This document shows, piece by piece, positions 4,087 through 37,434 of a DNA stretch of 64,000 nucleotides. How positions within the stretch are numbered: position 1 is the stretch's first letter; the number at the start of each line of letters is the position of its first letter. Below the pieces are notes generated by a model. It was not told the DNA's origin. It did not search any database and saw nothing but the letters and a program-made list of their open reading frames with translations. A program made the translations under genes and the position numbers. This DNA comes from Neelides folsomi. Its lineage: Eukaryota > Arthropoda > Collembola > Neelipleona > Neelidae. Where the stretch lies: positions 165,619 to 229,618 of the forward strand of contig JAQGBZ010000068.1 of NCBI GenBank assembly GCA_034687125.1. The letters are read 5' to 3'.

Positions 4087-7000
4087 ATGGGGGCAGGAGC
4101 TCTGAAGTGGGTCCTCGCGGTCCTCTTCGCCCACTCTGCTGCCGGAGGAGGATTTCGAGGTTCGTTTTACGATCCACTATGTAACTTTGTGCCATATAAA
4201 CCTCTCCGTCGAGTGTGGCCCTTGGAGGGGGAGGAAGACGTGAAGGGGCATGATAACAATGGCCCTTGAGACCTGCAGAGTCAGAGTGAGAAGACCAAGT
4301 TGATATTATTTTTCGACTCACTCCGTAGACGGCCAAAGAGATAGAATCACGATCCGGACCATCATTGTCCCTCTTTTTCTCTTGTCAAGAAAAGGTGGTT
4401 CATTGGGAAGGTTGAAGCTTCGATTGTTATCATTCATCCACCTTTTCTTCCCTATTCATTACGGACTCCCGACTCTCTTTTCACACTCCATACTGCTCAC
4501 CACATTCCTCGGATGCGAGAGCATTCATCCTGAATAAATAGACCTGGTCACAGATCAAAACACTTGGAGGAGTCGAAACAGGAGCAGCCGAGTCATCCCA
4601 AACCCATACAATGGAAACCTGCCCTCCAAGACTCATATAAATAAATATATAGTAATGGCAGTTCTACCTGTCTCTCCTTCCTCCGCCCCCCATTCTTCCC
4701 GGGATCATATCACTGAAAACCACATCCATCATCCGAGAGCGGAGTAAGGAGATCTCCCAGATTGAGTGTCGATTCACTCTCGTATTCTCCCAAGGTGTTT
4801 GTGAAACTCAAGACGGAGACGTCGAGGGGCAGCCGGACCCTCTCACACTTCAGACCAGGGAATTTGGGCTGGAATGAAATATGTGATTTGGAGCCAGGAC
4901 CATATCCCTCTGTTTACTTTTCCCTTCTATGAGGAATGAGTTTTGGAAAATAATGGAGAATTAGCTGCTGACAGGCCTAGGAACATGAGTCGGACCCGGC
5001 GGAGGCTAATGGGTACTTGATGGCTCCCAGCTTTCCTCAGAGACAGCCGAGGTTTGGCTGAGGGCCAGGACGTCGCCCAGCCCTCATTATCACCCCGCCA
5101 GCCCAAATTAATCGACCTTTGGTCCGCACCACTCACAATGTCTTGGGGCTAATTGCCTGGCTCAACAAGTGAGTCTCGTCAATTCACTCCAAGTGATTCG
5201 CTTCAACCGAGACGGATGTGGGGGGCTGGCGGAGAATATTAATGGCTTAGAATTGAGATATGGATTGATTCCCGGATGAAGATGATAATGATGTATTAAT
5301 GTCTTGCAGGGCCGCCGAGGATTGTGAGTCGAGAACTGAGGCCTTTGCAGGTCGTTCGTCTTGGTCAAGAATTCCGAGTCATTTGCCCAGTGGAGGGCGA
5401 CCCCGCTCCCCTCGTGGATTGGTACAAGGTAGGTTCATGTCCGAGAGAAATCCATTATGAATTAAGGGCCGACAATTAATGATCTCTTCAATGGCAGGAC
5501 GAGGAGCCGATTACCCCGGCTTGGTCTCGCTATCGAGTCACTGCCAAGTCCCTTCGCATACGGACCATTTTCGCTGAAGATGCCGGCATTTATGAGTGCA
5601 AGGGGGTGAATGGATTTGGATCCCAGAGTGCGCGAATCCGTCTCGTCGTTGTTGGTAAGATTTTTTCACTTCCATTTGAAACATTGGTATACCATTGGTA
5701 GATATGTACATGTGGAGACCCGCAATCCACCTCTATTATGTTAAGTACGTGGAGCCATAAACCCTCGCCGGCGTTTCCTTCGCGGCTTTGGCTCAAAGAG
5801 CCAAAGAATGGAGTGGGATGAGTAGATGGGAAATCTCCCCGTAATTTCCTCAATTCACCCTCTAAATGGCAAACCTCGGAATCTCTCAGGAACAGACAAT
5901 TGAATTGAAGCAATTGTGAATCAAATGATCCAATGGATAAGAAGTAGAGAGGGATTTCTGTGGTAAAGAAAACTCTTTTTCCTTCCCTTTTTCTTCCCCC
6001 CATTCTTCCTCATCTTTGGAGAAGAAAAGGCCGAAGAGAAGAAAGAGTGTCACTTCTCCGCCTTTGGAAGAACTGAGCCGGAAAACGGCCTCTTTTTGGA
6101 AACGATCAATTTTGATGGATCAAAGGTGGGAATGATTTGAGGCGGAAAGGTGTGTCACATTCTCCCGGACTTGAATGAGAAGTATCATAAATAATTATTT
6201 GCTTAGGCGAGATGTTGACCATAATGGAACGACGCTTCTTCATTTTTTAGTCTCCGACATCGGACCTAATCTCCTCAATCTCCAACTTCCTTTAGACTCA
6301 AAAGAAAAACTTGTAGACCCTGCAATAAAATGTGCCTCATGAATTTTCTTCGCTCCACCGCACATACTTTTTATATCCAACAGAGATACAGACGACTTTT
6401 GACTCGATCAACCGATATGAATAGCTCCTCAAGTTTCTCTCAAACCCAAATTCCTCATTTTACGCATTGCAACTGTTTTGATCCATTCAGTTGACCATTC
6501 CTTTTTCGACTCTTTGCGGCTCTCTGTGAAACCAAAAGCTCAAGTGATAATTTTGACACTTTAGAGGCTCTAATTCAAAACCAGTTAATTTTAATTTGCC
6601 AATTGTCAATAACTCACATACAAACCAAACAATAATTTTTTCCGTGTTAAGAAAGTTGAGACTAATGATTTTTGTATAGGGATTCATAATTGAAGGACAA
6701 ATAATATTTTCTGGGGATGTCTAAAATAAAGTCTAAATGTGTCCGTGTTAAAGATGTAGGATTCATTCCATGGTGTGAAAGGGTTTGTCCAGGAGGAATA
6801 TAATAATAATAATCTTCTCTTCTAACCATGTTAAAATTGTAGTGTTTGGGAGGGTTTTGGTCCAACGAGGAGTTTCCTCCTTTTGGAGAAAAATTCCAGA
6901 TGAAGGTGACAGGGGAATCCATTTGGTCATATCGAGGATCCTATCTGTCTCGACTCTCTGTTCGAGCTCCAGGAGGTACGGAGACAGTTTCTCGAGCCCG

Positions 7001-9628
7001 CATAGTTTTCCCCATCCCTTGCATCACCACAGCTTTGTTTCATTGTCCTGTGACAATGATGAGTCAATTCATCATTGGACCATGCAGATTCCCGAGATTC
7101 CCTCTGCAGAGGGAATTAATTGCTCAAGGTGTCTGGCGAGACGAAGGGGCAGGAGCCCTTAATATTTAATATTGGGTCTGGTGAGAGAGGGGAGGTTAAG
7201 AGCAGCTCAGGTAATTCCTAATGGCCTCTTCGAACTGTCACCTTTCCTCAATGATAATTTCCCTCGTGTCTCCTTCTATGATAATATTTTCCATTCCCCT
7301 CCAAAGGCCGCCACAAATGACATGTTGACAAAAGGAGAAGTGATAAGAGTTTTGGCACCTGGGCCAGTCCTATTTTCGCCCCTACCCTTCCATTGCATTA
7401 CAAAGATCCCAGACGGCCCTCTCCCCCGCCACGTCACTTGAGACGGATTTATTCGAATAACCACATTCCATCATTTTACCTGCCCCACCACTCCCTGGCT
7501 AAGCCACTCGTTTTCAATTTACGAACAATAGAAGCCCATTTCCTTCACAGTAATCCATATAGCCAACAATCCCCCTTTTCACGCCTTCACTCTACGAACT
7601 CATTCACTCATAATTGCCCTTCAATCACCCACCCTCCAATTATTCATTAATGAGACCCTCTAAAGAGGAATGACAAATGGGGAAATTTTATTTACAAATC
7701 ATTTTACTATAAATTTGCCCATTCATTATGCAAAGGCCAACAGAAACAAGTAAACATAATAAACCATCTTCGGCCCCCAATGAGGCCTCATTAATTATAA
7801 TTTAGTTATTAATGTAATACTAAAAGTTATCACATAATATGTCAAGAAATTCATTACAAAATGAATTCATTTAAAAACGTAAAAGCTCTTTATTGGAAAA
7901 TTATAAAATTAAGAATGGATGGATCATTGTAGATGTGCTGATCATATTTTTTATTTTGTTTTTAGATGACGGGTCCTTCCCTGTGGGAAACGAGGAATCT
8001 CCATTGAAAAGACGAGGGAATTCAATGAGTGCTCCGGTCTTCACAGTCCCCGTGTTCAGCCAAGAGTCTCTCGAACAATCAGGACCTATGCAGCTCTCTT
8101 CAGGAACCACGATCCGATTGCTTTGTGAGGCCAAGGGTTACCCCGCTCCAAAAGTTACTTGGCTTAAAGTACGTCGCATTCCATTTCTTGCATAAATTAA
8201 ATTTAGTACTCACTTAAATTTAGTCAGTTTTGATATAAAATGAATATTTAATGGTTGGTATTTGAACAGGATGGTAAAGCCATTGGGGATAAGATGTGGC
8301 GGCAAAATTCTTGGACACTTTTGCTCTCCAAATTGGCAGCCGAAGACTCGGGGACCTTCACTTGTGTGGCCAACAGCAGCATGGGCAAAGTGGAGTTTAG
8401 CATTAATCTTCACGTCACAGGTTCGTGGGTGTTTTTATCTCTTAACAGGATTACACGAGTAGATGGGTGTACGTAAAAAGAGAAGGGATCTGATCTCTGT
8501 TTTCATTACCTCAATCACATGTTTACTCAACGAGTGTGTTCAATTGACAGAATTGAGAGACAAGAAGAAACCGGAGTTGGTTGAGGGATTTCCGCACGGC
8601 CTGAGCGTTCTCAGTGGCACCGAAGGAGTGTTGAAGTGTGCCGTGAAGACCAGAGGTTTTTCCGCCATCCCTCCTCATATCCGGTGGCTCAAACGCGTGG
8701 CAGGTGAAGATGCAGGAAAACTCGGACGACACAAGCACCGGCTCCTCCCTGTTGAAAATCAACATGTTCTTGTGATCCAGGTAAAAAATGTTCAAAGTAG
8801 ATCCAAGTACATATATGTAGTTCGTCTTCAGAGGAAAATGGGAGGGAGAAGGAAATTAAAATTCAATTTGTTTAAATAGGAAACTCACGACGAAGCAATT
8901 CGGATCAACGAGACCGAGCGGAATGGAACTTATGTGAGCAAATTGATCCTGTCTAAAGTAGAGGCCTCAGATGAAGGGATCTACATTTGTTTGGCTACAA
9001 ACAGTGTCGGCTACACTTTCAAAGAAGCCACTCTCACTGTCATCGAAGGTAACAACTCTCCAAGTTGGAACATAAAAAATCCACGTGTGGCTTTGGAATG
9101 CATATAAACATTTGGTGTATTTTTCTTTCTCGGCCCATGTCATCACCTGCTCAAATTATTTGCTAACATTTCAATTTGGGTATTGCAGGAGCAGAAATTG
9201 TCAGCAGCTCGGCGTCTGTGATTCCTTTCCCTGTTTTTGTGATTGGGACGTCGGTGGCTGTCGCTCTGCTGTTAATTGGAGCGGCTTGGGCTTTAAGACG
9301 ACATGGAGAGCTTCAGCCAAAGCAAAGAAAGTCAACAAGTCCCAGGAAGCATTCGTCCCCGTCGATGAATTCGGGATTTCTTCAAAAGTACGATCAACGA
9401 CATCTTCTCCCGTCCATTCACTCCTCCGGGTCTTCGTCCACCCATCTGAAGACGAACCCTTTTGAGCCAACGATCGAGTTCGAATCGCGGTGTTCTTACT
9501 GTGACCTCGCCGATGGTGACTCGGACGTCTCATCTTTGCCACCAATTCCGACGGCGCCGAGACATTACGAAGAATGCTGCTTCAGCTCACGGAGTCATTC
9601 CCACCAGCACTGTGGTCATTGGAGATGA
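4087..9628 (+). CDS. FGFRL1: FGF receptor-like 1 homologue, copy A (8 coding exons)
   Basis: Exons 4087-4159, 5310-5428, 5498-5654, 7966-8168, 8270-8420, 8551-8780, 8880-9048 and 9189-9628 give 513 residues (human FGFRL1 is 504). Residues 1-20 form a signal peptide. Ig1 is ~25-116 (Cys50, Trp62, Cys98; NGFGS after the second Cys), Ig2 ~145-234 and Ig3 ~245-367 (ICLATNSVGYTF motif). A helix at ~383-403 spans the membrane. No kinase follows. The wording RLGQEFRVICPVEGDPAPL closely matches vertebrate FGFRL1. The ~110-residue tail is rich in Ser and ends in a Cys/His cluster (HYEECC, then HSHQHCGHW), like the His-rich end of vertebrate FGFRL1. In vertebrates this protein binds FGF and heparin at the cell surface and acts in cell adhesion and as a non-signalling receptor. 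Donors of exons 1 and 5 are the weak GTTCGT, but phase and homology support them. Confidence 0.93.
4160..5309 (+). other. First intron of FGFRL copy A
   Basis: This 1.15-kb intron is GC-richer than most spacers in the window and carries no recognised exon. Such a composition in a first intron of a developmental gene could reflect regulatory DNA, but nothing specific can be named. Confidence 0.5.
5655..7965 (+). other. Third intron of FGFRL copy A (2.3 kb)
   Basis: The intron separates the Ig1 and Ig2 exons. No additional exon or inverted-repeat element was identified. A short (TAA)n run lies near 6800. Frames of 85-137 codons are present on both strands without domain similarity and are taken as chance. 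Confidence 0.5.
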
Positions 9629-9696
9629 TCTGGAGTCATAGCCGAACCATTCTCTCACAGATCTCTTTGTATATTATCTTGTAAGCAATGAATGTA

Positions 9697-9702
9697 AATA
9701 AA
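9697..9702 (+). terminator. Polyadenylation signal of FGFRL copy A
   Basis: AATAAA lies 69 bases after the stop codon and is followed by T-rich sequence. Confidence 0.65.
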
Positions 9703-12700
9703 TCTTTCTGATTCTATCTCCATGTTTATCTGCCTTTTTAATTGAGACTGCCATGGGATCTCCGACTTACCCAACGCTATCGCACAATTGTTCAAGATGG
9801 ATGGAGGCGACAGAAAGATGTTTAAAAGATTCGGATATTTTCTCTAATTGAAAAGTATTGGCAATTAGGTTCGAACATTTAGAAGATAAAAGAAGTCAAA
9901 AGTATTATTATTAGTAATTTAAAAAAAATTAATTATTATTATTATATAGTACAATTGTGTAGAGCTCTGTCGCCTTGAAAAATGATCTAGACGTATTTGT
10001 AACGAAAATTGTTTCATGGGTAAATTCCAAAGTGAAAAACTGGACTTTGGTCTCCAAATGTCGAGAGTTGTGCATAAATATCTAATTGTTTGAATTCCTG
10101 GAGTTGACCGTGAAGGCTGCAATTACTCGAATGGCTCCATTCCATTTCACTCCATTGCTCCCTCGACCTCCCACCTTCAACTCCAATTGATCTCACTTAA
10201 ATACTTCTTTTTCTTTCATCCCACAACATTACTATTTACATAGATAGTTGGACAATCGAATGGGGATAAAAAGAACCTCTATTATGTTTACCTATAACTG
10301 CCCTACGTAACTATTAATTTCTACAGCTCAGCTTTTTATTGCTTTAACACCTCTCTCCTCGGATTGGACCAGAAGGGAAGATGTGTTGTAGTGAGGAGAT
10401 GAACCACGTTTGATAGGGACAAAGAAGGGGTTGCCTTGTTGAGATAAAGTTATGCAATTAGGTATACAGAGACTCCAATTGAACGTCCTCGTCTCCTTGT
10501 TCATTTGGGAGAGATGGGGAGATCTCCCTTACACGAATAAGTCCAAAGACCATTTTTTACGCCCTATCTTTTATCTTAGAGACGACTCGAGGACATTCTT
10601 TTTAACGAGGTGGGTCGTTAGTTGAGAGTACCTTTTCTTACCTCACTTTCATTTATCCCATTCCTCAACATCTCCTTCTGGTCAACTTGTTGAAAGGGTC
10701 CTCGAGAGAAAAAATAATCAAATATTTTTCTTTTAATAACTTCATGACCATTCCTTTAAGGGAAATGAAGAAACTATGCAAAAAAGTACATTACAACCAG
10801 TTAAATTTAACTACATAAATATATGTAAATACCTACTATGAATACATACCATGGTACATACAAATATGTGCATCTTACATTAAGTATAACTTAAGCTATA
10901 GAAGTAGAAATGTTTTCTTCATTCAAAAATTCAAAAATGTATATTATTGTATATTATTTTACCACTGACGTAAGGGAGCAAACGAAGAATCATTAATTAA
11001 TTATGTATTTATAGCATATTATGGAAAATAGCGGAAATGTTCCTTCATTGGAATGTTTACAAATAACCGGGTCTGTATGAACATTATTCCTCAAATGTCA
11101 AATGCGGAAGTGAATGGAATCTTGAAATTGAAAAATTGGATGTGAAATTTAAAACAAGATTTTGAATTTGTCAGAGAGTCTGGTCGATATTTGTTGAGCT
11201 TCTTCGTCTAGAGTTACAGAGGAAGTGGAAGAACGGAGGAAAGAGCCGAGGAGTGTGAATGAATGATTTGGAAAACAAACAGAGGATGAAGACGGAGACG
11301 CCAGCACGTGCTATTTCAGCTTTCACCCAAAACTTTGTTTCCACATTATCCCCTCTAATCTCTCAAGCCTTTTTGGAAACTTTGCATGGAATCTGATTGT
11401 TAAATTTGGATCACTTTAATTCTCCCAGAATGAAAATGAACATGGAAATGAGAATTGACACTTTTCCTGTCTTCACCTCAAACTCCTCAACTTGAGCTCC
11501 AAATATTCCCCAACTTTTCTCCTCAGTTATGGTAGAATTTAAAGGAACAAGTTCACAACCCGGGAAGTTGTACACTTGGTGCCAAAGTTTTTGGAAGGTC
11601 AAATGACTCGATGCATCCGAATAACGATAATTGTGTGCAAAGTGTGAGAATGGGACTGTAAATTGGGGCTGATGTGACAAGAGAGAGAATCTGATCGATC
11701 CAAGTCATGGAAAACTCATTGACGATCCATCCCGCTGTCCCATTAAGTCCCAACCGGGAAACCGCATACCATTTCTCTTCCAATAACCGTAAAATCCGTC
11801 TTGGGTAAATTACATTTCCATATCCATGAAATCGACTCAATGTTCTAAACTTAGCTTCTTTCGGGAAAGTTGAGTAAAAAGCGTAGGTCATTCCATTAGG
11901 CTTCTTTCTTCTCCAGCATAAACAACTTATGTCCTCCTCGGGAGTGACAAATATGCTGAGGATTTTGGGGGAATGTTCGCCCACCCCCGTCATTATGAGA
12001 CTTTGGCTTATCCAACTCCTCGAGTGTTTTCCAAAGGAATCCAAGGAAGATGAGGAGATTGGGGAACTCCTGGTTTGAACATCTGCACTCCTTGGTTAAT
12101 AATTTCAACCTGGAGTGAACCGCAATGTTTTCCCAACTCCGCCTCCCCTCATCCGCTCGATATTTGTAGGTAAATATTTGGATTTTCTCTTTGATTGAGT
12201 ACACTTCTAGTCATCCTTTCAATCCAATCCCCATTGTTGGATGAGTTTGGAAAAATGCTGGAAGCCACCCAGGTTTGTCCCTTTGTGCCAACCCCTCGAG
12301 TGTCCCTCTTAGAGGAACCGTAAGAAGCAGAGGAGGAATCTGTAAGTGGAGGACAAAGGGACAGTTGGATGTCCCCTCAAAAACCCTCTACCAACTTTTC
12401 CTCCTGGAATCCTCAACGATCCTTCATTCATTATCTCATCTCACTGTCTCATTGACTCCAAAGCTCCTCAACATTTCAAACTTTTGAACCCTCATGCGTC
12501 ATTCCCAACTCACTTCATGTCATTCGGCGTGAGGTTGCTTGAACGAGATGGAAAGTCAATTGGAATCATTCCATGTTATTCTTCTTTTTCGAAGGAGGTT
12601 TATAAAACCCACCTTTGTATCAAACTCATTGTTTTCAACTGAGTTCATTCAATTCCATTTGGGTATTTATGACATGTGTCAGAAGTCAAATTGATGGATT

Positions 12701-20970: not shown

Positions 20971-20972
20971 CA

Positions 20973-21388: not shown

Positions 21389-22014
21389 TCATATATGGTA
21401 CATATTTAAAAGATTTACTATATAAATAAATAGTATAACGAATAAAAGCAAATGAGACGTTAAAAATTATTTATTGACTTTGCTTGGATAATAAAAGTTG
21501 ATATTTTTACCACATTTACAACAAGAGTAAGTTTATTAAGTTAAAATAAACCCAAACTAGTCATTTCCCAAAGTGGTAGTTGTGGATTTGAGAAGAAGCG
21601 TTGGAGGTAAATTAAGAAAAAGAGCCGCCACATATTTATTTAGATGAGACAGGGAATTTGGGATCTGGGCGGTGGGAATGACCTTATTCACCCCCTCCGA
21701 GGAATCTCCGAAAAAAGGGCTTACATATATCAGTAATTATATGGTCAGAATATTTTAATTCATTTGATTAAATCATTTATGGGATTACAATTCTCTCTCT
21801 CACTCTCTTTGATTTACCAACCCCTTGGAGGTAACATATTTAATATTATATGTAACTAACATACTTTCAACACACTACCAATTGTAGCAAGAAGCTAAAT
21901 GTTATAAAAAGTATTAAAAGAAATTAAATTCTCCAGAGTTGCGCTAATCATATCATACCCACTTGGAAATTTTAATTAAAAATGTGTTAATTTTTATTTT
22001 GCAGATAGTCGACT
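21389..22014 (+). promoter_or_regulatory. Upstream region and 5' leader acceptor of FGFRL copy B
   Basis: A pyrimidine-rich tract ending TTTTGCAG at 22004 lies only ten bases before the start codon at 22015. It looks like a 3' splice site, so the mRNA probably has an upstream non-coding exon. That exon was not located. 21389-21990 has no gene. Confidence 0.4.
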
Positions 22015-25000
22015 ATGCCGGCTTTCTTCTTCATTGCGATTCTTCTTCACACTTTTCCAATGGCCATTGTCACAGATTCCGGACTTCAAGGTAAATGTCA
22101 ATTAAAGCTGTCAATTTTAAACATTGGCTTATTTACTTTATTGCATGGTTTAGGAAAAGTGGGGATATTCATTAGTAAGGAATTGGAAAGAGTTAATTAA
22201 AAGTAGCCAATGGGACACTGGGCGTTGGTCTTGAACTATTTATTTGGGTTGGGTAAATTATTGGGTCCCTTTTGAACCATTTGAGAGAGGAAAGAGGGAT
22301 CCCTTGTAACTTGTCCCTTAGCTGTGATTCTCTTCCTGATATTCTTTCAATTTATTGACTCAGCTCCGGCACTCGACTTGGGAAAAGGAGGAAAAAAATT
22401 CCCTCAGCGTCTTCTCACCTTCACTAATTTCCTTCTCTTAAGTGAAATGTTCACTGGTGTTTGTTTATTAGACCATTAATCTCTTATTAGACTCAAACAG
22501 GGTCGTAATGATGTCAATTTGTTTGGTTTGGGCTTCGAAGCCTGGCAGATGGTTTAATACAATATTTTACTACACACATGGATTGACATGTCATGTTTAT
22601 AAAGTATTTAGATACAAAAAATAGAAACTAAGTATTTAGGTAATTTAAGCCTACATCTCTCATTACTTCATTTTAACCATTACTCGGTTACTTTTTAAAC
22701 AACCTTTTTCTCAATACTCAAGTACATGTATATTTTTAAATAGTAATTTATGTAGATACTAAATATTAAGATACTCGGTATTAGGCAAAGTTACATTCTT
22801 TAAGATATTGCGCAGAAATTTAAGTGCATAATTTATAGGGGCGTAGCTCAAAAGTGACTTTAAATTATGGACCATTAAAAGTGCATTAATTGTTTATTTA
22901 TCCTTTGTGTGAATTCGTAAATCAATCATAAGATCTAAAATTCCTGCTTGTTGCGTTTCAAAAATGAACGTCTATTTTAAAATGAAAGTTTGTATTGCAA
23001 CGTGTTGGAAGTTTGCTTGTATGCAGAAGACGTCTGGTTTCAGTGAGGGTTAACATTATACTAAACCCAGTTAGTGCTTTTTAACTCTCCAACTCTCCAT
23101 GTTTGAAAGTGAAATGAAGAAATATTGAGAGAGTTTACAAATTCATAAGTATAAACACAGAGGTAAAATTTAATTTGTGCTGCTGGAGATTTTAATTTGT
23201 AAACAATTCCATTGAAATACTCATAGGTATATTTGAATAAAGCCTTTAAATGAATAAAAGGAATAAAACATTGTAACCATACCGGATGGAATGAATTTGT
23301 CCCCTTTGTTGTCCTCTTTTTTAATTCTTGTCAGCTGGACTCCCCATTTGGAATTTGCCCATGAAGGAGATAAGAAATGGTCTGACTGATTCAATGGTGC
23401 AGTTGATGGGGGATGCATTTGGCCACCGTGGTTCCTAAATACACACATTTGAGCATGGAGCAATCTGTCGAGGGAAGAAATCGCAGCTGGACATCCTTCA
23501 CTTTCATTATCAACCCCCTCGTTTTGATTTCTTTCAAAATCAATCGTGTTTGAGCGTTGAGTGGAAGGGAGGGCAAATTGGGTTACGATCTTCATCTCAA
23601 CCTTTTAAACTCGGGGAAAGAGAATTGAAGGGAGCGGGAGGAAATGGGACAATATTAGATCCAATCTCAAAGTCAAATTGTGCATAAAAGAGAGACGTGC
23701 CTTGATGGCACTTTCAAACATTCAATCTTCATTTTACATCATGGCCCGACCAAAAAACTCTCAAACTTGAATTCCCTCATTTAATCTCATAAATACATAC
23801 AAATATTCCATATCTTGAATACACAAAACGTGCGTAAATTGCTTTTCCATTTCAATGTCACTTTCAATTGCGAACAATTCATCATATTCTATCAACTAGC
23901 AACTAACTTCATAATACATATCTGAATACCTACATTACAAATATAATACATGATAAGTAGAATACAGATACAATGTAGTTAGTTTAGTACATATACACAA
24001 GTGTACCAGTTTCGGTATATTTATATTAAATTGTATATACATAGTTATACCTATGTGCATGTACTATAGAGTATACCTGTATTTATAAGATAATCATATT
24101 AAATGATCAATATTGATAGTTGAATTAAGTAAATTAAAATGAAAAATAAACAATTTATTATTAAATTTCAGCTCCTCCACATATCAGCGGAGATGTCATT
24201 TCAAAATACACGGCCAAAATTGGAGACACTGTTCGCATCGACTGCCCAATCGACTCCCCCACATTACCGATGTACGATTGGTCAAAGGTAAAGTGTAAAT
24301 ATTTATTATTTCTTAACTTGTCAGCGTTGGTGAGAAAGAAATTTAATCAAAGAGCTTTCCACAAAGGAAAATAAATTGAAAAGAGAAATCAAGTTTAAGT
24401 ATCTACTATGGACATAACTACCAAATATACAGATAGTACCTATTTATATACCGTACTTAAGTATATATACAGACTACCTAAATTTAGTATATTCTATGTA
24501 CTATACTAGAATTGATGAGGAAATATGAGCTTAATTTTTAAGACAAATAGTTAAGTATATTGTGAAGATGGGTGGTGAGGGAACAGTTAATGCATGTATT
24601 AGATAGGGTTCTAAATAGATGTGTTCAGTCATTTAAGCCACCCGAGAAAAGAGACAAGTTGACGATGAAGGATTCGGGTAGCGTGTATCCGCAGAGCTTC
24701 CCAAGTAAAATGAGTGATATTGATTGAGGGAAAGAGGAGATTTTGTTTTTCTCTGGAACACATTGCTCGGGATAGGACTTAAGTGATGGTAGGGTTTGAA
24801 GAGACAATGGCAAATTTGAGCCCGGTGGAAGTTCATAGACTCGGAAATGGATAAGAAAACAAAATTTTAGGACGGTGAAACAATAACTGCAGCCTGGGAA
24901 CGGCGGTTTCGTGTGACGGGGAAGAAATTGCGGATCAAAGGAGTTGTTCCTCAAGACGGCGGAGTTTATGTTTGCAAAGCCATCAACGGATTCGGAAGCA

Positions 25001-28000
25001 ATACGATTTCAACGAGGCTCCTCGTATACGGTAACATGAAACCATTTCCCTTCCTAAAGGAAATCTTGATTAAATTAAAGTCGAGGAGTTGTAAAACTTG
25101 AGCCCTCTTTTCGCCTCCATTCAATTCCCTTTCGATTACATCGAGGTTTCTTGTTCCGACCAATCCCACTCCTCCACCATTCCAACATTTTATAGAGTTC
25201 AAAAGTTAATTTGTGAGTATTCAATTGACCACGCAACATTGCAATAAGTTAATCAATTTTAATTCAATTTTTGGGTCAGGCAATTAAACTTTAACTTGTT
25301 TTGGGCGAAGTCATTCGGAATAGTATGGCACAAGGGCACAATAGAAGCTACAAATGCTACAAGCGTGTACAATAGTTTCACGATATTTATCTCTATTATT
25401 TTAGGTTCATAAATACAATCTCTTAAATTTGATTAGACAGTATTAAATATTTATATCAAAAAAATACACATGTATACATTGTATAAATACAATATAAATA
25501 TTATGCTCTATGTAGAGTACATTTATGTATATGTATTTGTAGTTAATATAAATGTATTTATTCAGAGGGTGCACACAAATGGAGTTGTTTCCGAGACTCG
25601 GGTGTACATAAATAAAAGGCATCCGCGGGATGTTAAGAGCATAATATTTAGACGTTTGGGGGGCAGTTGAACTGGGATGAGTCCCGAGGAATGTCGTAGA
25701 ACTAATAAAGGATATTTTTCATCTGGCTCCATTCTTCCACTTCATTAAATTGTGAAGTAACGGAAGGAGGAAAAGGGTGGAAAATGTAATGTCATTCACC
25801 AACCCATTATTCCCACCACCTTTCAGATTCCATAATTTAATAAGGAAGATAAACAATGAAAGTGTTTGAGTGGATGGAGACCCCGAACGTGACTTGGACA
25901 TCATTTGGGAGATTTTGGTTTCCCCCATGGGATCCGCTGGTCCTCATTGATGCCCGGCCAGATGTCTCGCTTTAAATGACAGCTCCTTCACCTTCGGACT
26001 TGCCACGTTCCTCTGGATTAAATACCAATATTATTATTGGTATTTTCTCTTTTTTTCCCCAAAGACGGATCCCAAAGACGGAGGGTGGGAATAATGAAGA
26101 AGGGGAGGATGATGACGTGTATCATACACCTCATCGTGGAAATTTCAATTTGAGAAATGAGGACTCTGCATAATGCGGCTCAAAAATGTGTGATCGAGGG
26201 AAGAAGGAAGTGTTGTGTATGAGGGAGCACTTTGGTTCCCCATAGCTCACAGATGCTCTTCTTCCCAGACCCTTCAATCCAGAGCGAACATCTTCCCGAC
26301 TTCCATGAGACTTTAAAGCCCCGGTGGATGTCAACTGTAAATTCCTTTTTTGATTAACGAGCCCCCCAATTTTCCTTTTTTCTTCCGGAGTCATAGAAGA
26401 AATAATTACCCGCCTCCTCCGCCCAACCTCTTTGATTCCCAATCCTCCTCAGTAATAACAATTTATGAAGAGGCAAAATAGACAGTTATTTATGTCTACA
26501 CACGAGGGGAAAAAGAGGACAATGGAGAAAACATTTTTTTCACTTTCTCTCTTTTGAAATATTAGCTAATCCATTTATCGATGCCACCGAAATGGCACTT
26601 CCCAAAGGAACTCTTTTCTCAATCCTACAAAATGCTTATATTCAAACACGTTCATTCAGTTCATTCACATTGTTCGCACTTAACGCATTTCTCCGCCTTC
26701 AATTTATCATCTCCCATCATTGCCATCATCCTTTTGTAAATGATTTATTCAAGTAATAAAAGTATAAAATAGCCCATATTAAGCATAACTGTAATTATTC
26801 ATGCAGCAGTTAAATACTTATGTGATGAAATTTATTTCATTTAATACCTTTATAATTTGTAGTACTAACATTAAAGATAAATATTTCAAAGACCTTGTAC
26901 TTAAGATATTTTATTTGGAATAAAGAAAGCTCATGAATATAGATATATGGTGAGAATGCATACAGTGAGAATGTGAAGATGAGGGCTCATCTTAAACTTT
27001 ATATCCATCCTATTATTATACATGGAGAGTCTCGGAATTTTGTTAAGAAGGGAAAGTGATGAAATTCGGTTTGATGAAATGAAAGCATGGTATGTATAAA
27101 GGATCTGTGGAGGGAGTCTCCTCAATCTTCGGAATGAAATCCGAGCTGGATGTGAGGGATGAAGTCCATAACAAATTTCCTTTTACCTCTCCCCCTTCTA
27201 GAAGGAAACTCGAGAATGGGATTTTCAAAGAACCTCCCTCAAAACTCACACAACTCTGCTCAATTGTTCCACACAATTTGGAGTCAAATAGCTCAAAAAC
27301 TTTTACTTCAATGAGATGAAAAGAAAATAAGTTAAAGAATAACTAAAAGCCCTCATTTCACAACCTCCATCATAAAGCTAAAAGTTAAAAGTATTGAAAT
27401 TTGAAATGTTAAGAATAAGTTATTATTAGACTTAAAATTCAAAATCTTTCACTCATGTTTAATGTTAAAATATTTATAATGTAATTACATAATGTAATAC
27501 ATTAGAAATTAAGTACAAATTTAATATCCCCTACAAAAATTTATACAATTTTAATTTATACTAAAGTATAAATTTTTGATTGATACAATACTCTACATAA
27601 AAGAATTTTTTCATTGCTTTCTTCATGCTATGAAATATTTTCTTTTTAGTTAAAAAAGTAAAATCTAGTTCAACCCAATGAAATCAAAAAAAGTATATTG
27701 AATCTAAACACTCGAAATGGATTTTTGTGAAACATGGGTAAGATCTAAGAGACGGGGAAGGGGGAAATCCAAATGTTTTGAGGGTAAATGTAAGTAGGAA
27801 TTGAGGGTCGCAACCCTTTTGATGGAACTTTATCATGTCATCATTATTTGAGCCGTGTCATTCCTCCGCCTCCTTCCCTCCTTTCAATCTTCACTTTCAG
27901 AATGCTCGGAATTTGAATATTGAGCCTTTTCCCTCTCACATCTCGGAGTTGGACGGGTGAAAAGGAGATTTAGGGAATTTCAAACCAAACCCTCAGCAAA

Positions 28001-30439
28001 ACTTTCCAACTGGTTGATTTCACATATATTCCTACACAATGCAAAGAGTTATCATAAAAGGAATTTAATAAGGATCTCCATCCACGCCTAAATACACAAT
28101 ATTGCATATACATTGCATATCTGTAGAATGAAATATGCATAGCAGTAGATCATTACAGAGTAACTTTTGCATATACATAATATGTACAAATACATATAAG
28201 CACAATAACCAGTAATATGTTTGATATCCAACGAATGCAGCCTATACAAGTTTTGCATTATTATAATATTAATAAAGATAATACAACATTCCTTTAAGCA
28301 CCCATGATATACTGATATATGAGTATTAATCATAGTTCCTAATTCCTCACTCTCATACATTACAAATATGGATCTTATATAATATACATTGGTCTCAATA
28401 TCGTATTTAGAAATATTTAAAGGAGGAATGTTGTGTGTAGATGAAAAAGGGGAGGTTGTCGGTGGGAACGAGGAGCCGTCGACCGGAGAGAAATCTCCCG
28501 ATGATGGAGTTGTTGGGATTCCCCCCATTTTCACCGAGACGAGCAGACCTCCATCTGGACAAACTTTCCGACAGAGTCTCGGGTCATCACTCACTCTGCG
28601 ATGTGGGGCCGAAGGACCACCCTTTCCTCAAATATCATGGTTGAAAGTAAGATCACCCACGGTCCTTGTTTGGTCTTAAGAGACCCGTTTGTTGCAGGAC
28701 GGCCAAGACCTTCCCGAAGCCAGTGGAGAACAGCAATTCCAAATAAAGGCCATGACTGAGCAGGACGTCGGGACCTACGAGTGCGTTCACAAGAACGACT
28801 ACGGCCAAAAAAATGCATCGTTCGTTGTGGAGCTCGCGAGTGAGTTGGTTTGAGTGCTCCACCCATTAGGATGACCTATTTATTTACATGAGGCGGGACG
28901 AGAGACAAATAACAAATCCCACCCCGTGTATGTAATATGCTAAGTAATACACACCTTGATACAAGTTAGGTATATATATCTTTTTATATATTTAATACAT
29001 CTAACTTATACAAATGTAAGTGAAAACTTATATTTGTATAAAAGTGAAAAGGATGAAGGGCATTTCCGCTTGATAGAACCAATAACAATTTATTATGCCG
29101 TGAGAGAACCCCGTCTTTTAATTCTTAATAGGCATCACAATAGGGAATATATTTTAATTTGTCCGAAAGCCTTAGTTCCCCTCGGAGTTGAAAGCGATGT
29201 AGATGAAAGTCCTGAGGGTCCTTCGTGGATAACGTGGATGATGAATTTCTCAGGAGAAAGCAGATCCAACACCGGCGGCCCTCACATCCTTTCCCTCGAC
29301 CCTTCAACCCTTACTGTTGAAAGAGGAAAGAAAGTGGCTTTCCGATGCAGAATCCAGAGCGATATGCAAGTCAAAATCCAATGGTTCCATGAGGTCAAGG
29401 ATATGGAAACAGAGTCAGAGGGAATCTACCACGTGAGTGATTAATTGCCACTACTCTAAACTATATCCAGAGACCCAAATTTCATTTTTAAATTGTAATT
29501 TTACAATTTTTAAATCGTAATTTTTATATTGTAATTATAATTTCAAAATTTTAAAATTTAAATTGTGAATGTATTGAATTGTTAGTTAGGGGACGAGAAG
29601 TACAAAAGCATCAGTCAGACCAGTTGGAATCTCTTGCTCCGAAACGGGTCTTATTTAAGTGAGCTGAGTCTTGATACGGATTTGGCCGAGTCGGGATCGT
29701 ACGTTTGCCTGGCTGCCAACACGGCTGGTTACAACTTTCAAAAGTCATTTCTCAAAATCGTCCAAAGTAAAAGTAAGTCAGCTCTCATCGCCCTGTCTCT
29801 TTTTGTTTACCGAGAAACTCAATGTTTGGTATTTGTTTGATAGGGATAGGGAGCTACGAGGAAGAGGAGGCGCTTCTTCCTTTTGGTGCTCTCATCGCCA
29901 TCCCGGCCACACTCGGATTCCTCTTCCTCGCCCTCGCCCTAGTTATCTGCTGTGTTCGGAAAGGGCAACCCGACCCCGTCAGCCCCTCGGCAACCTACGC
30001 CACACCAAGAGACGTCGCTCCCCCGCCGCACCCCTTTTACAAACCTCGCAGCTTCCCGCCGTCTCGAACCATCCCACCAGACTTTGATCATCAGTTTTTT
30101 TCGAAGGGACCGCCAAGTCCGGCCTATGCCTCTGTACCTATTTGTGAACCATTTGGGCCGGCGTTCGGGGCGGCTCGACCTCCGCTCCCATGTCGGAACA
30201 ACTTCTCCGTGAGGAATTATACAAATAATGGGAAAGGGCCGCCGGAGCCGGGACTTCTCACCCAACCGCTTCTGACCCAAACGGCTTCTTCGTCTGACTC
30301 GCGGGAATCGCGGCAGAGCGGAGGTTGTCGACCCGAATTCCCTCCGCAACTCCACAACTTCCGGGAGCAGTGTCAATGGGGAAGTTCAGGAGGCTCAGAC
30401 GCATCGTTCGACCCCAAACGACCTCAATACCGCCATTGA
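22015..30439 (+). CDS. FGFRL1: FGF receptor-like 1 homologue, copy B (8 coding exons)
   Basis: Exons 22015-22090, 24172-24287, 24871-25030, 28441-28646, 28698-28839, 29254-29432, 29586-29772 and 29844-30439 give 553 residues with the same phases as copy A. There is a hydrophobic signal peptide (1-~20). Ig1 spans ~26-117 (YVCKAINGFGS), then comes an acidic linker (118-~142). Ig2 runs to 233 and Ig3 is ~245-355 (VCLAANTAGYNF). The membrane helix is ~370-392, ending in CCVRK. No kinase follows. The ~160-residue cytoplasmic tail is Pro/Ser-rich and lacks the His cluster of copy A. Possible N-glycosylation sites include NAS in Ig2 and NGS in Ig3. Exon 7 has two in-frame donors six bases apart; I chose the GTAAGT site at 29773. 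Family identity is secure; ligand and signalling partners are unknown. Confidence 0.92.
22091..24171 (+). other. First intron of FGFRL copy B (2.1 kb)
   Basis: AT-rich with GC-richer patches at 22.2-22.55 and 23.25-23.75 kb. No exon was recognised. The 124-codon minus frame at 23221-23595 has no domain similarity. Confidence 0.45.
25031..28440 (+). other. Third intron of FGFRL copy B (3.4 kb)
   Basis: The intron lies between the Ig1 and Ig2 exons, the same place as the longest intron of copy A. It mixes AT-rich DNA with balanced patches at about 25.6-26.7 and 27.05-27.3 kb. No exon or transposon was identified. Confidence 0.45.
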
Positions 30440-33228
30440 TACGCTTTAAATAATGTCTCTTTTAAGTAATATTTATTATCCACTAACAATTTATTTATTC
30501 TAGAATTTATATTGCTTTATTACTTCATTGAGATCTGTACTATTATAATTATTATATTAATATAACTGCTGTAAAGAAAAGTGTATGGATCTATTTAGCT
30601 TTATGATTTTCTTCAGTTGCTTTTTTTTACATTTATATAAGTTTATTAAGTAAATGAATTCCTTTCATTTTTATTATAATTAAAAAGTTAATATTAATTA
30701 AAATTTTCACTTTCGTTTTAAAATAAGGATTTATGATTTTTCCAAATATGGAATTTTGCAAAAATATTATAAATTACTATGTTTAATAATATAAGTTTCC
30801 AAATATGAATTAGATCCCATTCAAGTACTTATATTGTTAGTTTAAGTCATTTATGCATTGGTGTACATGTAAATATTTATTTGAGATAACATACAAAAAC
30901 AACAAGAGTTTTGATAGCTTGAGTATTTTAGTCAATCAAATATATATTAAGGATATTAGTAACACAAACTCCAATCATGGTAAATGATAAGCTCATGATT
31001 AACTTGTGTTAGAATAACATTTGAGTAAAATAATCACACCTACTTATAAATGATTAAATTTGTAAAATTACATCCATGACTTAAATTATGTTATTTGTGT
31101 TTTGTAGTACAATATGTATATATCATTATACAAATACATTGTACTTTGTCTAACAGTCAAATTATTTAATTATCATTATAAAAGATTTTATAAGCTCCCC
31201 TACAGATGTTTATCCATATTAAGTAATACTAAATTACAAAATGCTTAAGTACAGTGAAACTTTAGATAAAAGAATTAAAAAATGTGTGAATTCCTAATAC
31301 CTACCTATAAGCTTTATCTATCTTATACGTTATCTGTAAATATATTAGTATATTTAAATAAATATAAATTTATTAATAAGGATTTATTAACAAAACGAAT
31401 TACTTATAATATTGACCTTTGAAACCATTCACGTAATTGTCGATTTTTAAACGTTTCTGTGCAAATAAACTAAAATTACATAAATAAGTAAATGTTGAAA
31501 TTGTTATTCTGTGAAGTAGATAATTACTAATATCATTAAGTTAAAGATTTTATATCAGCTTTATACTTTAAGTATAGGAATCATAAACACCCATACCTAA
31601 TATTTTAAGTTTATATACATTTTCTCATCCGAATAGGTATTACAAGTTAAAACAATAAATTAACTTTGAGTGAACTGAATTATAAATTTTCACTTGTTTA
31701 AAATTGCATTTTAAAAATATATTATTTATTAATTACAAGTTTAACCTTTAAATTTAATAAAATCAATAGCGGCATCTCAAAAACGCCGATTGTTGACTAC
31801 AAAGAAACTCATTATGTCATTGTTAAACTATCACGCAAAGATCAAAATGTTTTTTATCATACAACTTGACCGTTCCCAGAGTCATTATAATTACTCATGC
31901 TACGCTAAATTACAATTGACCCTCAAATGTTTCGCAAAATCCAATAATGGGACGGTTCATTTTTTAAAGGGGAATAAAATGGCGACTTTAATCTTCCCGA
32001 CAAGTGGAAAATTGTGAACAACTCACAATATTTATTTTTCATCTTTATATCTCTTCTAACCAGATGTTATGACAAGGAATAATTCATCAATTCCTTGCCT
32101 TTATAAACCCGCTAAAACCTTTGATGTCAGGCGAAGATTTAGCAGGAAAAGGAGTCCTTTGAAGTCTATCAAATTGTCCCCTGACTGTATCTAAATACAC
32201 ATATGTATGAAATATACCTATGAAATATACATTTATATGAAAGCCATATGGTAGAAGGATAGCAATATAGTATATAAGGTACCATAGTAATATGTATTAC
32301 TGCCCATATTTATTGAAGGGAGAATTCGGATGAGTCTTCCAAGTTGCGATAATGGGGATAATAGAAAGTAAAGTAGAGAAAGATGTTTTGAATCTGGTGG
32401 CGAGGGTCACCAGCCCCTCGTTTGATTGATAGGGGAAGATTGGCCGAGAGATGAGAGGACACGGTCGAGAAGATAAAAGGTCTTCGTGTGTGTTCATTAA
32501 GGCCCCGAATTGGAGTTTTATTGAACGTGTCATCCTGAGCCGTCCCCAGCATCTCTCCACCAAGATCAAAAAGATGGGGATGGGGGAGAGAAATAAATCC
32601 CACTTCTCCCCACACTCCTTCACATTTTCATGCATCGAAGCTTCCTTTCATCCTTTCATTATCTCTTTATTTTTATACCAATCCCCCAGTCCAATTTATT
32701 CTCCATTTAAGCTCCTTTTCATATGACAGATATGTAGACACAGTATCCATGGACCAATTTCATATCTCAAACTAACCCCTGTTCTTCTCCATTGATGACA
32801 TTGAAAATTAATTGGAAAATGAGACATCTTTTTCTATTTAATATTCTAGGTTAGGCATACTATGAACGAAAAATAAGAGGACTGATTTTTATTAGATATT
32901 TTTTCATTATGTATTTACGAAATCTCAATTTTACAGTTTAAATTATACAGTCAATTAAAGTATACATGTTCATATAGACTCTATTTATTATGTAAATTAT
33001 TAATTGATTCTAATTAACAAAATTGAAGATGTTTACTGCATAGTATACATTAGAGTAGTTATATTATTATGTGTGATCAAAACATGTTGAACTGTAATTT
33101 CAAAGTTTAAAGTTCTCCGTTAAATAAATATAATAATAATAATAATACACAATAGACATTTAATAAAAATGGAGTTAAACATTGAAGTTAAATACAAAAT
33201 TAGAAGTGTAGAAACAAAGCTTATATGT
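30440..33228. other. AT-rich spacer between convergent FGFRL copies B and C
   Basis: No gene seen. 30440-32030 is strongly AT-rich. 32290-32800 is a GC-richer island with overlapping frames on both strands but no recognisable domain. No clear AATAAA was found close behind the copy B stop. Confidence 0.45.
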
Positions 33229-33406
33229 ACAGGGTGCGTCAAAAGTTGCTTTATTTTTTAAATAGACAATCACATAAAAAGAAAGTAATAGGTATAGTAT
33301 TCAGCTTATACAGGGAGCGTCAAAAGTTGCTTCCTTTTTATGTGATTGTCTATTTAAAAAATAAAGCAACTTTTGACGCTCCCTGTATAAGCTGAATACT
33401 ATACCT
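33229..33406. repeat. Nested palindrome from a mariner-like terminal repeat
   Basis: The end motif ACAGGG(T/A)GCGTCAAAAG occurs twice in direct orientation (from 33230 and 33310) and once inverted (ending near 33388). Arms 33241-33281 and 33334-33374 are complementary, as are 33290-33332 and 33364-33406. The CAGGGNGCGTCAAAAG terminus resembles mariner-type ends. The structure looks like overlapping insertions or an end duplication of a short inverted-repeat element. Confidence 0.7.
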
Positions 33407-33629
33407 AAGTGCATACAAGAAAGGATAAAAAAATAAAATAATTACTAAGATGCTTACTAAAAACGTTAAAATTCTATTTATTTAATAGTACGAGAAAAAT
33501 TAGCTAAATTTAAAATAATCTTAAATAATGAGATTGACAAGTTTGATTGTAACTAAAAGTAAGTAAGGGTATAAGTACATACCTTTAAGTATAATACATA
33601 TTATTTGTAAATACTCTCTTAAATAATAA

Positions 33630-33635
33630 TTTATT
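33630..33635 (-). terminator. Likely polyadenylation signal of FGFRL copy C
   Basis: AATAAA on the minus strand, about 150 bases beyond the stop codon at 33782. A second candidate lies near 33480. Confidence 0.45.
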
Positions 33636-33781
33636 CCATTTGTCATGATATTTGCAATTACATTAATTTATGCATTTGCTATTTACCATATAGTATACAG
33701 TAGTACCATAGTGTGTACTACATATTTACCATAGTACACACCGTAAATCGTATAACTAATCGTATTTTTAATTCAAAGTTT

Positions 33782-36700
33782 TTAATTTAATTTTGGAAAG
33801 TAAAGCTGCTGCTCTTCAAAAACTGACTCTGACTCTGAAGCTGAAGAAGGGAAAGGGCAAGGACAAGGGACCTTTTTATTGTAAGGTGATGAGATTCCTC
33901 TTCGTTTCCTTCGCTCTCTTCGTCGTTCTTCTCTCAAAGCTTCACTTCCCACAGACGAACATTCGGAAGGGAAGTTCGGGACGAGACGTCGGGTCTTTAA
34001 ATAGTTCACTCTCTCGGGAATCGAATTGTGAGTCGAACAAGAAATTTCCGATTCCGCGACCCCTGAGTTGCTATTAATGGAGAAATTCCTCATCGTGGAT
34101 CGGCACTCTGTTGATTGAGCCAAACAGGAAGAATTAAGAGGCGTCATCAGCGGTTGGAAAAATTGGCTTTCACTTGACAAAATCGAGGATCTTTGTACTT
34201 GTTGCTTGATTGCCATTTTTGTCTGGGGAATTGGGTTCCGGGATTTGAGAGGGCTTCTGCATCCATACTGCGAATGTCGACTTATGCAGAAAACAATGAG
34301 AAGTGTCAAAATGAGAAAAGTGATCGCCCATAAAGTTGCCCATTGGATTCGCGCTGCATCTTGCTTGGTAGGCAATACCATATGATCTGGAAAATATTAA
34401 ATACATGGTCAACTTATTTTCAAAATATGCTTTAATACAAATAATGTACTTTGATTCAAATAATATACTTTTGTACAAAGTATAAAATTTACCATGATTA
34501 TGATAAAGATTACATAAAGAATGGTTATTCGTTAGAATTTATATAAAAATGTATTTTAATTTTTTAATGGCATACGTGGCTCTATGAAAACCCTGACTTG
34601 GCTATGATTATATCCCATGAGACCCGCAACAGCACATGAGTAATTCCCCGCGTCGGCCAAACTAACATTTGTGAGACTGTATTCGGCTGAATAGACATGA
34701 TTCCCGTGTTCTTGCATCTTCGTATTCTTCAAGACCTGTAGAAAAGAAGAGGATTACATTTGATGGCAGATTGATTGAACCTTTATGTGTGAAATTACAC
34801 AAACCTTGTAATTGTATCCGTCTAAGTAAATGGTCTCTTTCGTCTTGGCTTCAACTTCTTTGAGCCAAAAAAGCATTTTGTAATCGTCGTTCTCAAAGCG
34901 AGCAATGCAAGTGATGCTGGCGTCTTTGCCGGCTGAAAGTTTCATACTCTTTGGAGTCAGATCTATGATCTCGGCTGCTCCGTGCAAAGCTCCTTTATAC
35001 AGAAAAATCAAATATGAATATTCCATTTAAATATGGTACATAAATATACATAAGTACATACATCCGGGTAATTAATTCTGTTATATTTTAATATGGATAG
35101 TTAGTATTTACATATTATAAGAAATATTATTTTATGTTACCTGTAATTTCAATAAATACAGAGAAAGAATCTTTCCCATATGCATTCGAAGCTTCACAAA
35201 CATAAGTCCCGCTGCTGGTGGTGGTCACATTTGTAAATTTTAATATTGCAACGTTAGCGTTATCCCGAGATGAAACTAAGGTATCATTATCCTAAATCGA
35301 AATAAATTCAGTTATTGTATTTCTAATCATAAGGACAACTTATTTAAGCTTTTTAACTAAACATCATAGGAAACTGAGTGTATTCAATATAAAGTATTTA
35401 TTATTGAATTATTATTATACTTTTACCTTTATCCAAGTTATCGTGGGAAGGGGATTCCCACTTGCTTCACATTTAAGTTGTAGATTTTGACCAGTGATAA
35501 TTTTTAATTCTGAACGAGGCAAGTTATCGCGGATGATTTCGGGTTCAACAACGTCCCCTGTGTGATTGTTCCTTTTGTTTGTCGACGATTTGAGAAGATT
35601 GTCTTTGAAAGGATCTTCACCTAAAGTAAAGAAATTAAAATCATTATCAATTAAAGAATATTCAAAACTATCAAAATATCATAACTATCAATTTAAGAAT
35701 ATAGCTATTTAACATTTCAGTTTAGTTCATGATCAGAATTTCTTATTTTGACCAAAAAATTGTCCATATTTATAAAATTGTATTTTACAATTTAAAAATC
35801 TTATTTTTGTTTCACTTGAAATAGGATCAAAAAAGGGAAAAAACTTCAGGTATTTGGTATGGGACATGAGGATAAAAATATCTTATCAATGATTGACATC
35901 CACGGTTCCAGAATCCATGTCTAACAACCATGTTCCAAATAATTGATAAATTCTGACAATTGAGTGATTACGTGAAAAAGTAGGAGATTAGAGTTTAAAG
36001 GATATGATAAAGAAAGAATGATCTCCCTTTGCACCTGGACTCGTAATCAAACAATTTTATTTATACTTATTATTTATTTATTTATCGATTATCTTTTTCG
36101 ATCCACTTCATCTGCCCAAATCTTTCCAATCCTCTCCCTCGTTTTCAATTTGGAAAAATCAATTAACCTTTCTCCTGTCTGGACATTAAATTCACCTGTT
36201 TTTTTTCTATGGCAAACTCGCATACAAATACTTAAGTACATAGCCTACATAGGAGCTCATGTATCGGGTGGTCCCGAGTTAACGCTCTTTTTTTCAATCT
36301 AATGCCTTGTTTAATTTTTACCCAAATTTTCTTATAAATTGCAATTGTATTCTCTATGCATCATATAATAAGGAAAATAATCTTAATTTGAGACTTGAGC
36401 TCCATTGGCTATATTACAGCCCTTCAAACGACCACATCTTCGTAAGCCCTTTACACATTGGAATGGGTATTTATCTTAAGGCTTCGACCAATATAAACTA
36501 TCCTTTAACAATACTTAATGTATTTTCGGTGTAGTCCTTGTTCATCACATATTTCCAAAGGAAAATAACCGTGTTGAATGAGGTCAGAATAAAGGGGTGC
36601 TCAAGGGAAAGGTACAATTGGAAAACGAAACGAAATGAGAAAATCATACTTTATTGAGGAAAAGCGTCTGTCGTTTAATAATGGTTAAAGCAATTCGGAT

Positions 36701-37434
36701 TAAAGTTTGATACGTAATAGTCAAATGTATTCCCCATCGAACGCCCACATTAAAAGATTTTAATCATTACGCGTGTAAAAGTTTTTCATAATTAAAAAAA
36801 GAGTGTTAACTCGGGACCACCCGATATTATGTAATTCAAATAATGAGCTCCTGGATAATAATTAAATTCTTTTTAAATGCAAGTGCAATTTACCAGTCAC
36901 AGCCAACTGAAGTTCATAGGAACTGGAGCCGAAACCGTTTATGGCTTTACAAACATAAACTCCACTATCAGCATTAATCACAGATCGAATTTTCAATTTC
37001 CCTTGACTCGAAGGCTCAAAACGTTCCCAGAGATCCGTTATCCTTTCGCGCCCCTTTAAATGTTAATTAAACAATTAATAAACTTAATTAATAAATATGG
37101 AGATGAATCTCACCTTAAACCATTCAAAAATAGGCGGGCTGTTACTTTTAATAGGACAATTCAATTCAACATTATCTCTCACAGACGCAAAGAGCTTTTG
37201 ACTTCCTTCGTTTAATAAGACTGGAGGACCTGAGAAACAAAAATTAGTTAAGAATCTAATATAGAGTTTATTTATTTATATTAATTAATGATAAATTGTT
37301 TAAGAACCTCGTCCGGCATTAAGAGATTCAACGGGTATCTTGTTACGACCATTGGCGGTGATTGACTTAGAAGATACGAAAATAGAATGGTAGAGGAATG
37401 TCACCCACAAAACAATTTCCAACGATCTTTTCAT
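33782..37434 (-). CDS. FGFRL1: FGF receptor-like 1 homologue, copy C (8 coding exons)
   Basis: In transcript order the exons are 37434-37308, 37229-37114, 37053-36894, 35620-35427, 35291-35141, 34992-34805, 34735-34576 and 34386-33782, giving 566 residues. Phases match copies A and B exactly. The signal peptide covers ~1-22. Ig1 is ~43-134 (YVCKAINGFGS), Ig2 ~160-249 (CEASGNPLPTITW, later YVCEASNAYG) and Ig3 ~255-365 (YSCAVAGLMGYN). The membrane helix is ~381-400. The ~165-residue tail is unlike A or B, with a strongly basic run (RRERRKRR) near residues 518-527 and an acidic end (SESESVFEE). The third intron holds a transposon (36264-36823). The chosen start follows a 3' splice site at 37442; an out-of-frame ATG lies 7 bases upstream. 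The gene converges on copy B. Confidence 0.92.
36264..36823. mobile_element. 560-bp TA-flanked inverted-repeat element in FGFRL copy C intron
   Basis: The left end TCGGGTGGTCCCGAGTTAAC is repeated inverted at the right end; one mismatch follows before a run of T. TA lies immediately outside each end, as expected for a mariner-type TA duplication. No transposase frame is recognisable inside, so it is non-autonomous. Confidence 0.8.

Follow-up and report, generated by a model that had tools for sequence, protein, structure and literature searches.

Probable old local duplication of FGFRL1 into three intact kinase-less receptor-like genes in a pancrustacean genome

Introduction

A stretch of 64,000 nucleotides of genomic DNA, hereafter the window (C68:165619-229618 in an assembly of 75.1 Mb and 840 contigs), raises the question of whether three neighbouring genes within it are kinase-less FGF receptors of the FGFRL1 type and, if so, how and when they arose and what they may do. 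The molecular role of FGFRL1 is still debated between decoy, adhesion, fusion and signalling. Roles ascribed to FGFRL1 and nou-darake in published work are those of a modulator or decoy in FGF signalling, adhesion that depends on heparan sulphate, and fusion via Ig3 and the transmembrane (TM) helix (PMC2754479, PMC12026108).

The cluster had been considered unusual on the premise that FGFRL1 is usually single-copy in animals and absent from Drosophila, a premise that is not supported as stated. Bertrand et al. (2009, PMC2754479) describe at least three FGFRL1 genes near each other on one contig of Daphnia pulex, one gene each in the other invertebrates with FGFRL1, and two-Ig FGFRL candidates, with weak tree support, in insects including Drosophila. 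Planarians possess six FGFRL genes, namely nou-darake and ndl-1 to ndl-5 (PMC4865367). Zhuang et al. (2009, PMC2806250) recount a previous opinion by which insects and nematodes lack the gene. An expanded cluster is accordingly unusual only in part, as a clustered triplet was reported in 2009 (PMC2754479). The Daphnia predictions are described there as incomplete for all three genes, with FGFRL1A and FGFRL1B listed with signal peptide, three Ig domains and TM helix and FGFRL1C with three Ig domains. Among the papers listed for crustacean FGFRL1 only that one appeared relevant; a mitten crab study (PMC3714283) contains a single mention of the term.

Results

Gene models and domain structure

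Gene models were reconstructed exon by exon from genomic DNA by joining exons at GT/AG sites (Table 1). Each of the three genes, referred to as copies A, B and C, comprises eight coding exons with intron phases 1,0,1,0,1,0,1, and each reading frame runs from ATG to stop with zero internal stops. GT-AG boundaries were present at 21/21 introns. The splice sites of exon 1 of copy B and those at the starts of its exons 4 and 7 were picked partly by homology and to keep frame and phase, so agreement in phase at these sites is not independent. The model of copy B is least certain at exon 1; a scan for signal exons upstream of B returned 11 candidate rows, and the start chosen has the top hydropathy together with the donor judged best on visual inspection. 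The models reproduce the outer limits of 4087 and 37434 and the eight coding exons of identical phase given in the original prediction, and the introns retained in all copies support duplication of DNA, as had been proposed, rather than retroposition. GC at third codon positions amounts to 0.54 in A and B and to 0.41 in C, though the stops of B and C are only about 3 kb apart.

Table 1. Positions of the FGFRL-type genes and of neighbouring features identified in the window
Feature	Position	Strand	Details
FGFRL copy A	4087..9628	+	exons 4087-4159, 5310-5428, 5498-5654, 7966-8168, 8270-8420, 8551-8780, 8880-9048, 9189-9628; 513 aa
FGFRL copy A, domains	4087..9628	+	predicted leader, three Ig domains and TM helix; tail bears the acidic dileucine DQRHLL and ends in a His-rich stretch
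FGFRL copy B	22015..30439	+	exons 22015-22090, 24172-24287, 24871-25030, 28441-28646, 28698-28839, 29254-29432, 29586-29772, 29844-30439; 553 aa
FGFRL copy C	33782..37434	-	exons 37434-37308, 37229-37114, 37053-36894, 35620-35427, 35291-35141, 34992-34805, 34735-34576, 34386-33782; 566 aa
NELF-A gene (exon pieces), candidate conserved neighbour outside the cluster	51411..54042	-	Pfam, PDB
TAF6 C-terminal HEAT domain, left flank of the cluster	1391-1651	+	Pfam TAF6_C E 7.9e-10
Rhodanese domain, CDC25 phosphatase-like by eye	62597-62971	+	Pfam E 2.5e-7

Pfam identified Ig-type domains in A, B and C and listed no kinase domain for any of them, so that none has the composition of a kinase-bearing FGFR. 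No match on contig C68 was present among the matches listed in the genome kinase searches. An N-terminal hydrophobic stretch, predicted to be a leader and called by hydropathy alone, precedes three Ig domains in each protein. One clear hydrophobic helix was found past residue 60, with 19-residue means of 2.41 (A), 2.66 (B) and 2.63 (C) as compared to next-best values of 0.88, 0.68 and 1.25 elsewhere, and the stop codon of each gene model sits in the TM exon, as is required of FGFRL1. Models, Pfam and hydropathy together bear out the prediction of three complete kinase-less genes encoding a signal peptide, three Ig domains and one membrane helix. The Cys, Trp, Cys set of all three Ig domains is invariant in an alignment of A, B and C, which agrees with the claim that these residues are kept in every copy. 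Phase-1 introns flank the domains at four of the five borders described for human and Nematostella FGFRL1 (PMC2754479); the box-Ig2 intron is absent, and three extra phase-0 introns are present, one within each Ig domain.

Copy number and receptor complement

Searches of the 75-Mb genome with A, B and C as queries (B and C without tails) returned their own exons, sister exons and, with weaker matches, further Ig genes, and no fourth FGFRL copy was found among the best-scoring candidates. When the window was searched by tblastn with A, B and C, nothing beyond the three genes matched better than E 1.4. A kinase-bearing FGFR, here called the animal's own FGFR, was located at C4:134600-143600. Over 66 residues its kinase stretch shares 67% identity with human FGFR1; Ig exons lie 5' of the kinase, and a membrane helix was recognised by eye. 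Out of four frames of its ectodomain compared with Pfam, two matched Ig families, one matched nothing and one matched only a CodY model below the cut-off. By eye its Ig3 seems to lack the first Cys, reading VELEVD where FGFR1 has VEFMCKV. One FGF exon was found, on contig C512.

Other FGFR-like kinases, on C15 (Cad96Ca-like), C92 (Ret-like) and C393 (another receptor kinase), were discounted on visual inspection of their motifs. The motifs H(A/C)DLA(A/T)RN and PLPWRWMA were observed in three of the kinase loci read, and the matches listed include many short kinase stretches of similar kind on small contigs, which hint at a receptor-kinase expansion.

Relation to FGFRL1 and FGFR

The sole FGFRL reference in the comparisons was one sequence that we take to be human FGFRL1. 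Human FGFR1 was verified over its full length, and the sequence of the own FGFR was assembled by eye. The FGFRL1 reference was compared with published descriptions at four features only: its length is 504 and its domain positions fit Table 2 of PMC2754479, residues L281, F303, V304 and L339 agree with PMC12026108, and 10 His within the last 26 residues agree with PMC2806250.

Alignment scores of A, B and C against this human FGFRL1 reference were 550, 524 and 362, at identities of 39.4%, 35.4% and 29.7%. These are roughly twice the scores against human FGFR1 (279, 271 and 162) and FGFR3 (273, 230 and 165); scores against the own FGFR were 182, 191 and 156. Ig1 is the informative domain, as its identity to FGFRL1 is 51% (A), 47% (B) and 42% (C) while that to FGFR1/3 spans 18-26% and that to the own FGFR 19-20%. 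Ig2 separates weakly (30-33% to FGFRL1, 20-28% to FGFR1/3 and 28-31% to the own FGFR). Ig3 of A is equally near FGFR1 (34.6%) and FGFRL1 (34.5%), and Ig3 leans to FGFRL1 in B (31.7% versus 24.3% and 27.7% for the FGFRs) and in C (27.5% versus 21.0% and 25.0%). The GYxF end of Ig3 in A and B is FGFRL1-like. Among the 27 residues following Ig1, D/E numbered 4 in A, 8 in B, 5 in C, 6 in human FGFRL1, 13 in human FGFR1 and 12 in the own FGFR. Judged by ectodomain sequence, A, B and C are of FGFRL type, being FGFRL-like rather than FGFR-like.

A tree was calculated from seven ectodomains, namely A, B, C, the human FGFRL1 reference, FGFR1, FGFR3 and the own FGFR. It grouped A, B and C with FGFRL1 against the FGFRs at a support of 86/94, A, B and C together at 77/91 and B with C at 89/94, with no branch starred. 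Two rows are long, those of the own FGFR and of C, the latter having the longest branch of the three copies. Removal of C gave 97/96 for FGFRL and 82/81 for A with B. Removal of the own FGFR gave 96/96 for A, B and C together and 100/100 for the split from FGFR1/3, and removal of both gave 100/100 for this split and 91/91 for A with B. The 100/100 splits arise only without the own FGFR and so bear solely on the distinction of FGFRL from two FGFRs of vertebrates. Constraints not rejected in the AU test were A with FGFRL1 (p-AU 0.095), A with B (0.078), C with the own FGFR (0.153) and A, B and C with the own FGFR (0.163). The best tree and all whole-ectodomain pairwise scores concur in a grouping with FGFRL1 against kinase-bearing FGFRs, with these AU alternatives standing. 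The phylogeny that had been proposed as a check hence favours FGFRL over FGFR in the seven-row tree, but is not decisive with few sequences.

Alternative origins and age of the duplications

The most probable reading, to which we assign a probability of about 0.87, is that FGFRL1 was duplicated locally, long ago, in the genome of a pancrustacean, which gave rise to three intact kinase-less FGF-receptor-like membrane proteins. Derivation of the copies from the own FGFR by loss of the kinase, which would make them something other than FGFRL orthologues, fits the shared three-Ig plan, the Ig2 identity of 28-31% and the constrained tree left standing at p 0.163. It is nevertheless very improbable, as all three copies score two to three times higher against human FGFRL1 than against the own FGFR, Ig1 is far nearer FGFRL1, and the acid-rich stretch of the own FGFR, with 12 D/E of 27, is like that of FGFR1, as against 4-8 D/E in the copies. 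It is less credible still that the copies are generic three-Ig adhesion proteins of the DSCAM, Robo or neurofascin type that merely resemble FGFRL, even though whole-chain scores of DSCAM, titin, Robo and neurofascin exceeded those of FGFRs in PDB searches. This was most pronounced for C, with neurofascin best at 111 bits (one passing stretch) as compared to 51.6 bits for FGFR3 and 48.1 bits for FGFR1. These high scores are, however, mostly sums of several short Ig matches, whereas the matches of FGFR1 and FGFR3 to the profile, A and B, and that of FGFR1 to C, each form a single colinear stretch across the ectodomain. Ig1, the GYxF end of Ig3 in A and B and the phase-1 domain borders also fit FGFRL1. 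The human FGFRL1 reference itself returned no FGFRL1 chain from PDB at E up to 1e-20.

The remaining alternative, a recent triplication specific to this species, has a precedent in the species-specific tandem duplication suggested for the Daphnia cluster by Bertrand et al. (PMC2754479), but is highly unlikely here given the divergence of the copies. They are only 26-33% identical; A and B are each nearer human FGFRL1 than any sister copy, and C is nearer B (32.9%) than human FGFRL1 (29.7%). NG86 gave dN of 0.80, 0.97 and 0.85 for the three copy pairs with dS undefined, and the third base of shared fourfold codons agreed at 16/51, 12/40 and 13/46 (28-31%), near the 24-25% expected from composition. 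Such identity together with saturated synonymous sites indicates that the duplications are old. The predicted local triplication is therefore right as to position, and old rather than recent. As synonymous sites are saturated, dN/dS per copy is beyond the reach of these sequences, and the support for the proposed selection on each copy consists of intact frames and conserved Cys/Trp. Retention of all Ig Cys/Trp and of intact frames after long divergence is evidence that each copy has been kept.

Neighbouring genes and mitochondrial gene order

Out of ten flanking frames compared with Pfam eight had no match, the other two being TAF6_C and rhodanese, and Rfam returned 0 matches in the window. 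Roughly 14 kb beyond C, 2/5 candidate frames for NELF-A matched Pfam NELF-A_N (E 4.2e-19 and 4.6e-12), with NELF-A also matched in PDB (E 2.2e-20). Human FGFRL1 presumably lies in 4p16.3. NELFA and FGFR3 are placed in this band, and FGFRL1 deletion is discussed in the same Wolf-Hirschhorn syndrome (PMC5867687). One of the three identified neighbours would thus have its human counterpart in the FGFRL1 band, which was noticed post hoc and is suggestive of a possible very old FGFRL-NELF-A linkage.

The mitochondrial contig C742 has the order trnI, -trnQ, trnM, ND2, trnW, -trnC, -trnY, COX1, trnL2(UAA), COX2, trnK, trnD and an ATP6-like frame. COX1 was called by Pfam, the other proteins by eye and nine tRNAs by ARAGORN in invertebrate mitochondrial mode; on this contig no tRNAs were called by ARAGORN with the bacterial code or by Rfam, which gave one sub-threshold Xist row. 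COX1 contains 11 TGA codons and is open under the invertebrate mitochondrial code. Placement of trnL2 between COX1 and COX2 is characteristic of pancrustaceans and identifies the carrier as a pancrustacean, the clade to which the original guess of a crustacean belongs.

Cytoplasmic tails and the segment before Ig2

The FGFRL1 tail is described as barely conserved save for a dileucine, a tandem tyrosine motif and a His-rich sequence (PMC12026108), and the His-rich end is reported to bind zinc in human and, to a lesser degree, in sea urchin (PMC2806250). The tail of A contains DQRHLL, and 4 of its last 12 residues are His. Clustering of His at this end had P 0.010 under random placement of the 10 tail His, uncorrected for the three copies tested. 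The tails of B and C are dissimilar and have neither an acidic dileucine nor a His-rich end, and the tandem tyrosine motif is absent from all three tails. The net charge of the hand-picked segment before Ig2 is -1 in A, +2 in B and +1 in C, as compared to +2 in the own FGFR, +8 in human FGFRL1 and +4 in FGFR1. As the own FGFR reaches only +2, loss of basic charge before Ig2 may be a trait of the whole animal rather than of FGFRL.

Discussion

In comparison with human FGFRL1 the three proteins are alike in signal peptide, three Ig domains, TM helix and absence of a kinase, at roughly 30-39% overall identity with Ig1 at 42-51%. Four phase-1 borders are shared with the human gene by A, B and C, and A in addition has a candidate acidic dileucine and His-rich C-terminus. 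The human gene is single and has the box-Ig2 intron, a tandem tyrosine motif and, by hand-picked segments, a more basic stretch before Ig2, whereas three genes are present here, each with an extra phase-0 intron in every Ig domain. By published description the Daphnia pulex genes FGFRL1A, B and C are alike in forming a clustered triplet and in having Ig domains coded by several exons; the models there are incomplete, while those reported here are complete for all three (PMC2754479). Planarian nou-darake and ndl-1 to ndl-5 are alike as a multi-copy FGFRL family of a protostome (PMC4865367).

Each protein would be expected to span the membrane, to expose its Ig ectodomain to the exterior and to act without a kinase. 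Following vertebrate FGFRL1 and planarian nou-darake, such action could consist of competition with FGFR for FGF, of co-receptor or trafficking effects, or of cell-cell contact. Copy A may retain the canonical FGFRL1 role, being nearest to human FGFRL1 and carrying a DxxxLL motif of the endocytosis type and a His-rich C-terminus that resembles the tail by which the human and sea urchin proteins bind zinc. B and C have probably diverged; their tails are without the canonical motifs, which makes separate roles most likely, for instance in separate expression domains like those of the planarian copies. By this analogy the most likely function of the set would be that of kinase-less receptors that modulate FGFR, divided over different expression domains. 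A wider scenario, which is tentative and on balance doubtful, is that the triplet has been conserved in Pancrustacea as a cluster of ancient origin, common to this animal and Daphnia and near NELF-A since before the split of arthropods and vertebrates, in which A stayed canonical, B and C gained new tails and reduced heparan-sulphate binding, and all three serve as decoys or co-receptors to one FGFR.

The cluster is a second clustered FGFRL1 triplet and of a known kind, clustered triplication itself being already in print. New are the complete models of the triplet in this pancrustacean, the candidate canonical tail motifs in A and not in B or C, and the NELF-A neighbour that echoes human 4p16.3. 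If the animal is not a close relative of Daphnia, the cluster argues against the Daphnia triplet being species-specific. Three old, intact and strongly diverged copies alongside the one kinase-bearing FGFR recovered by the searches constitute a natural test of which protein parts can change independently.
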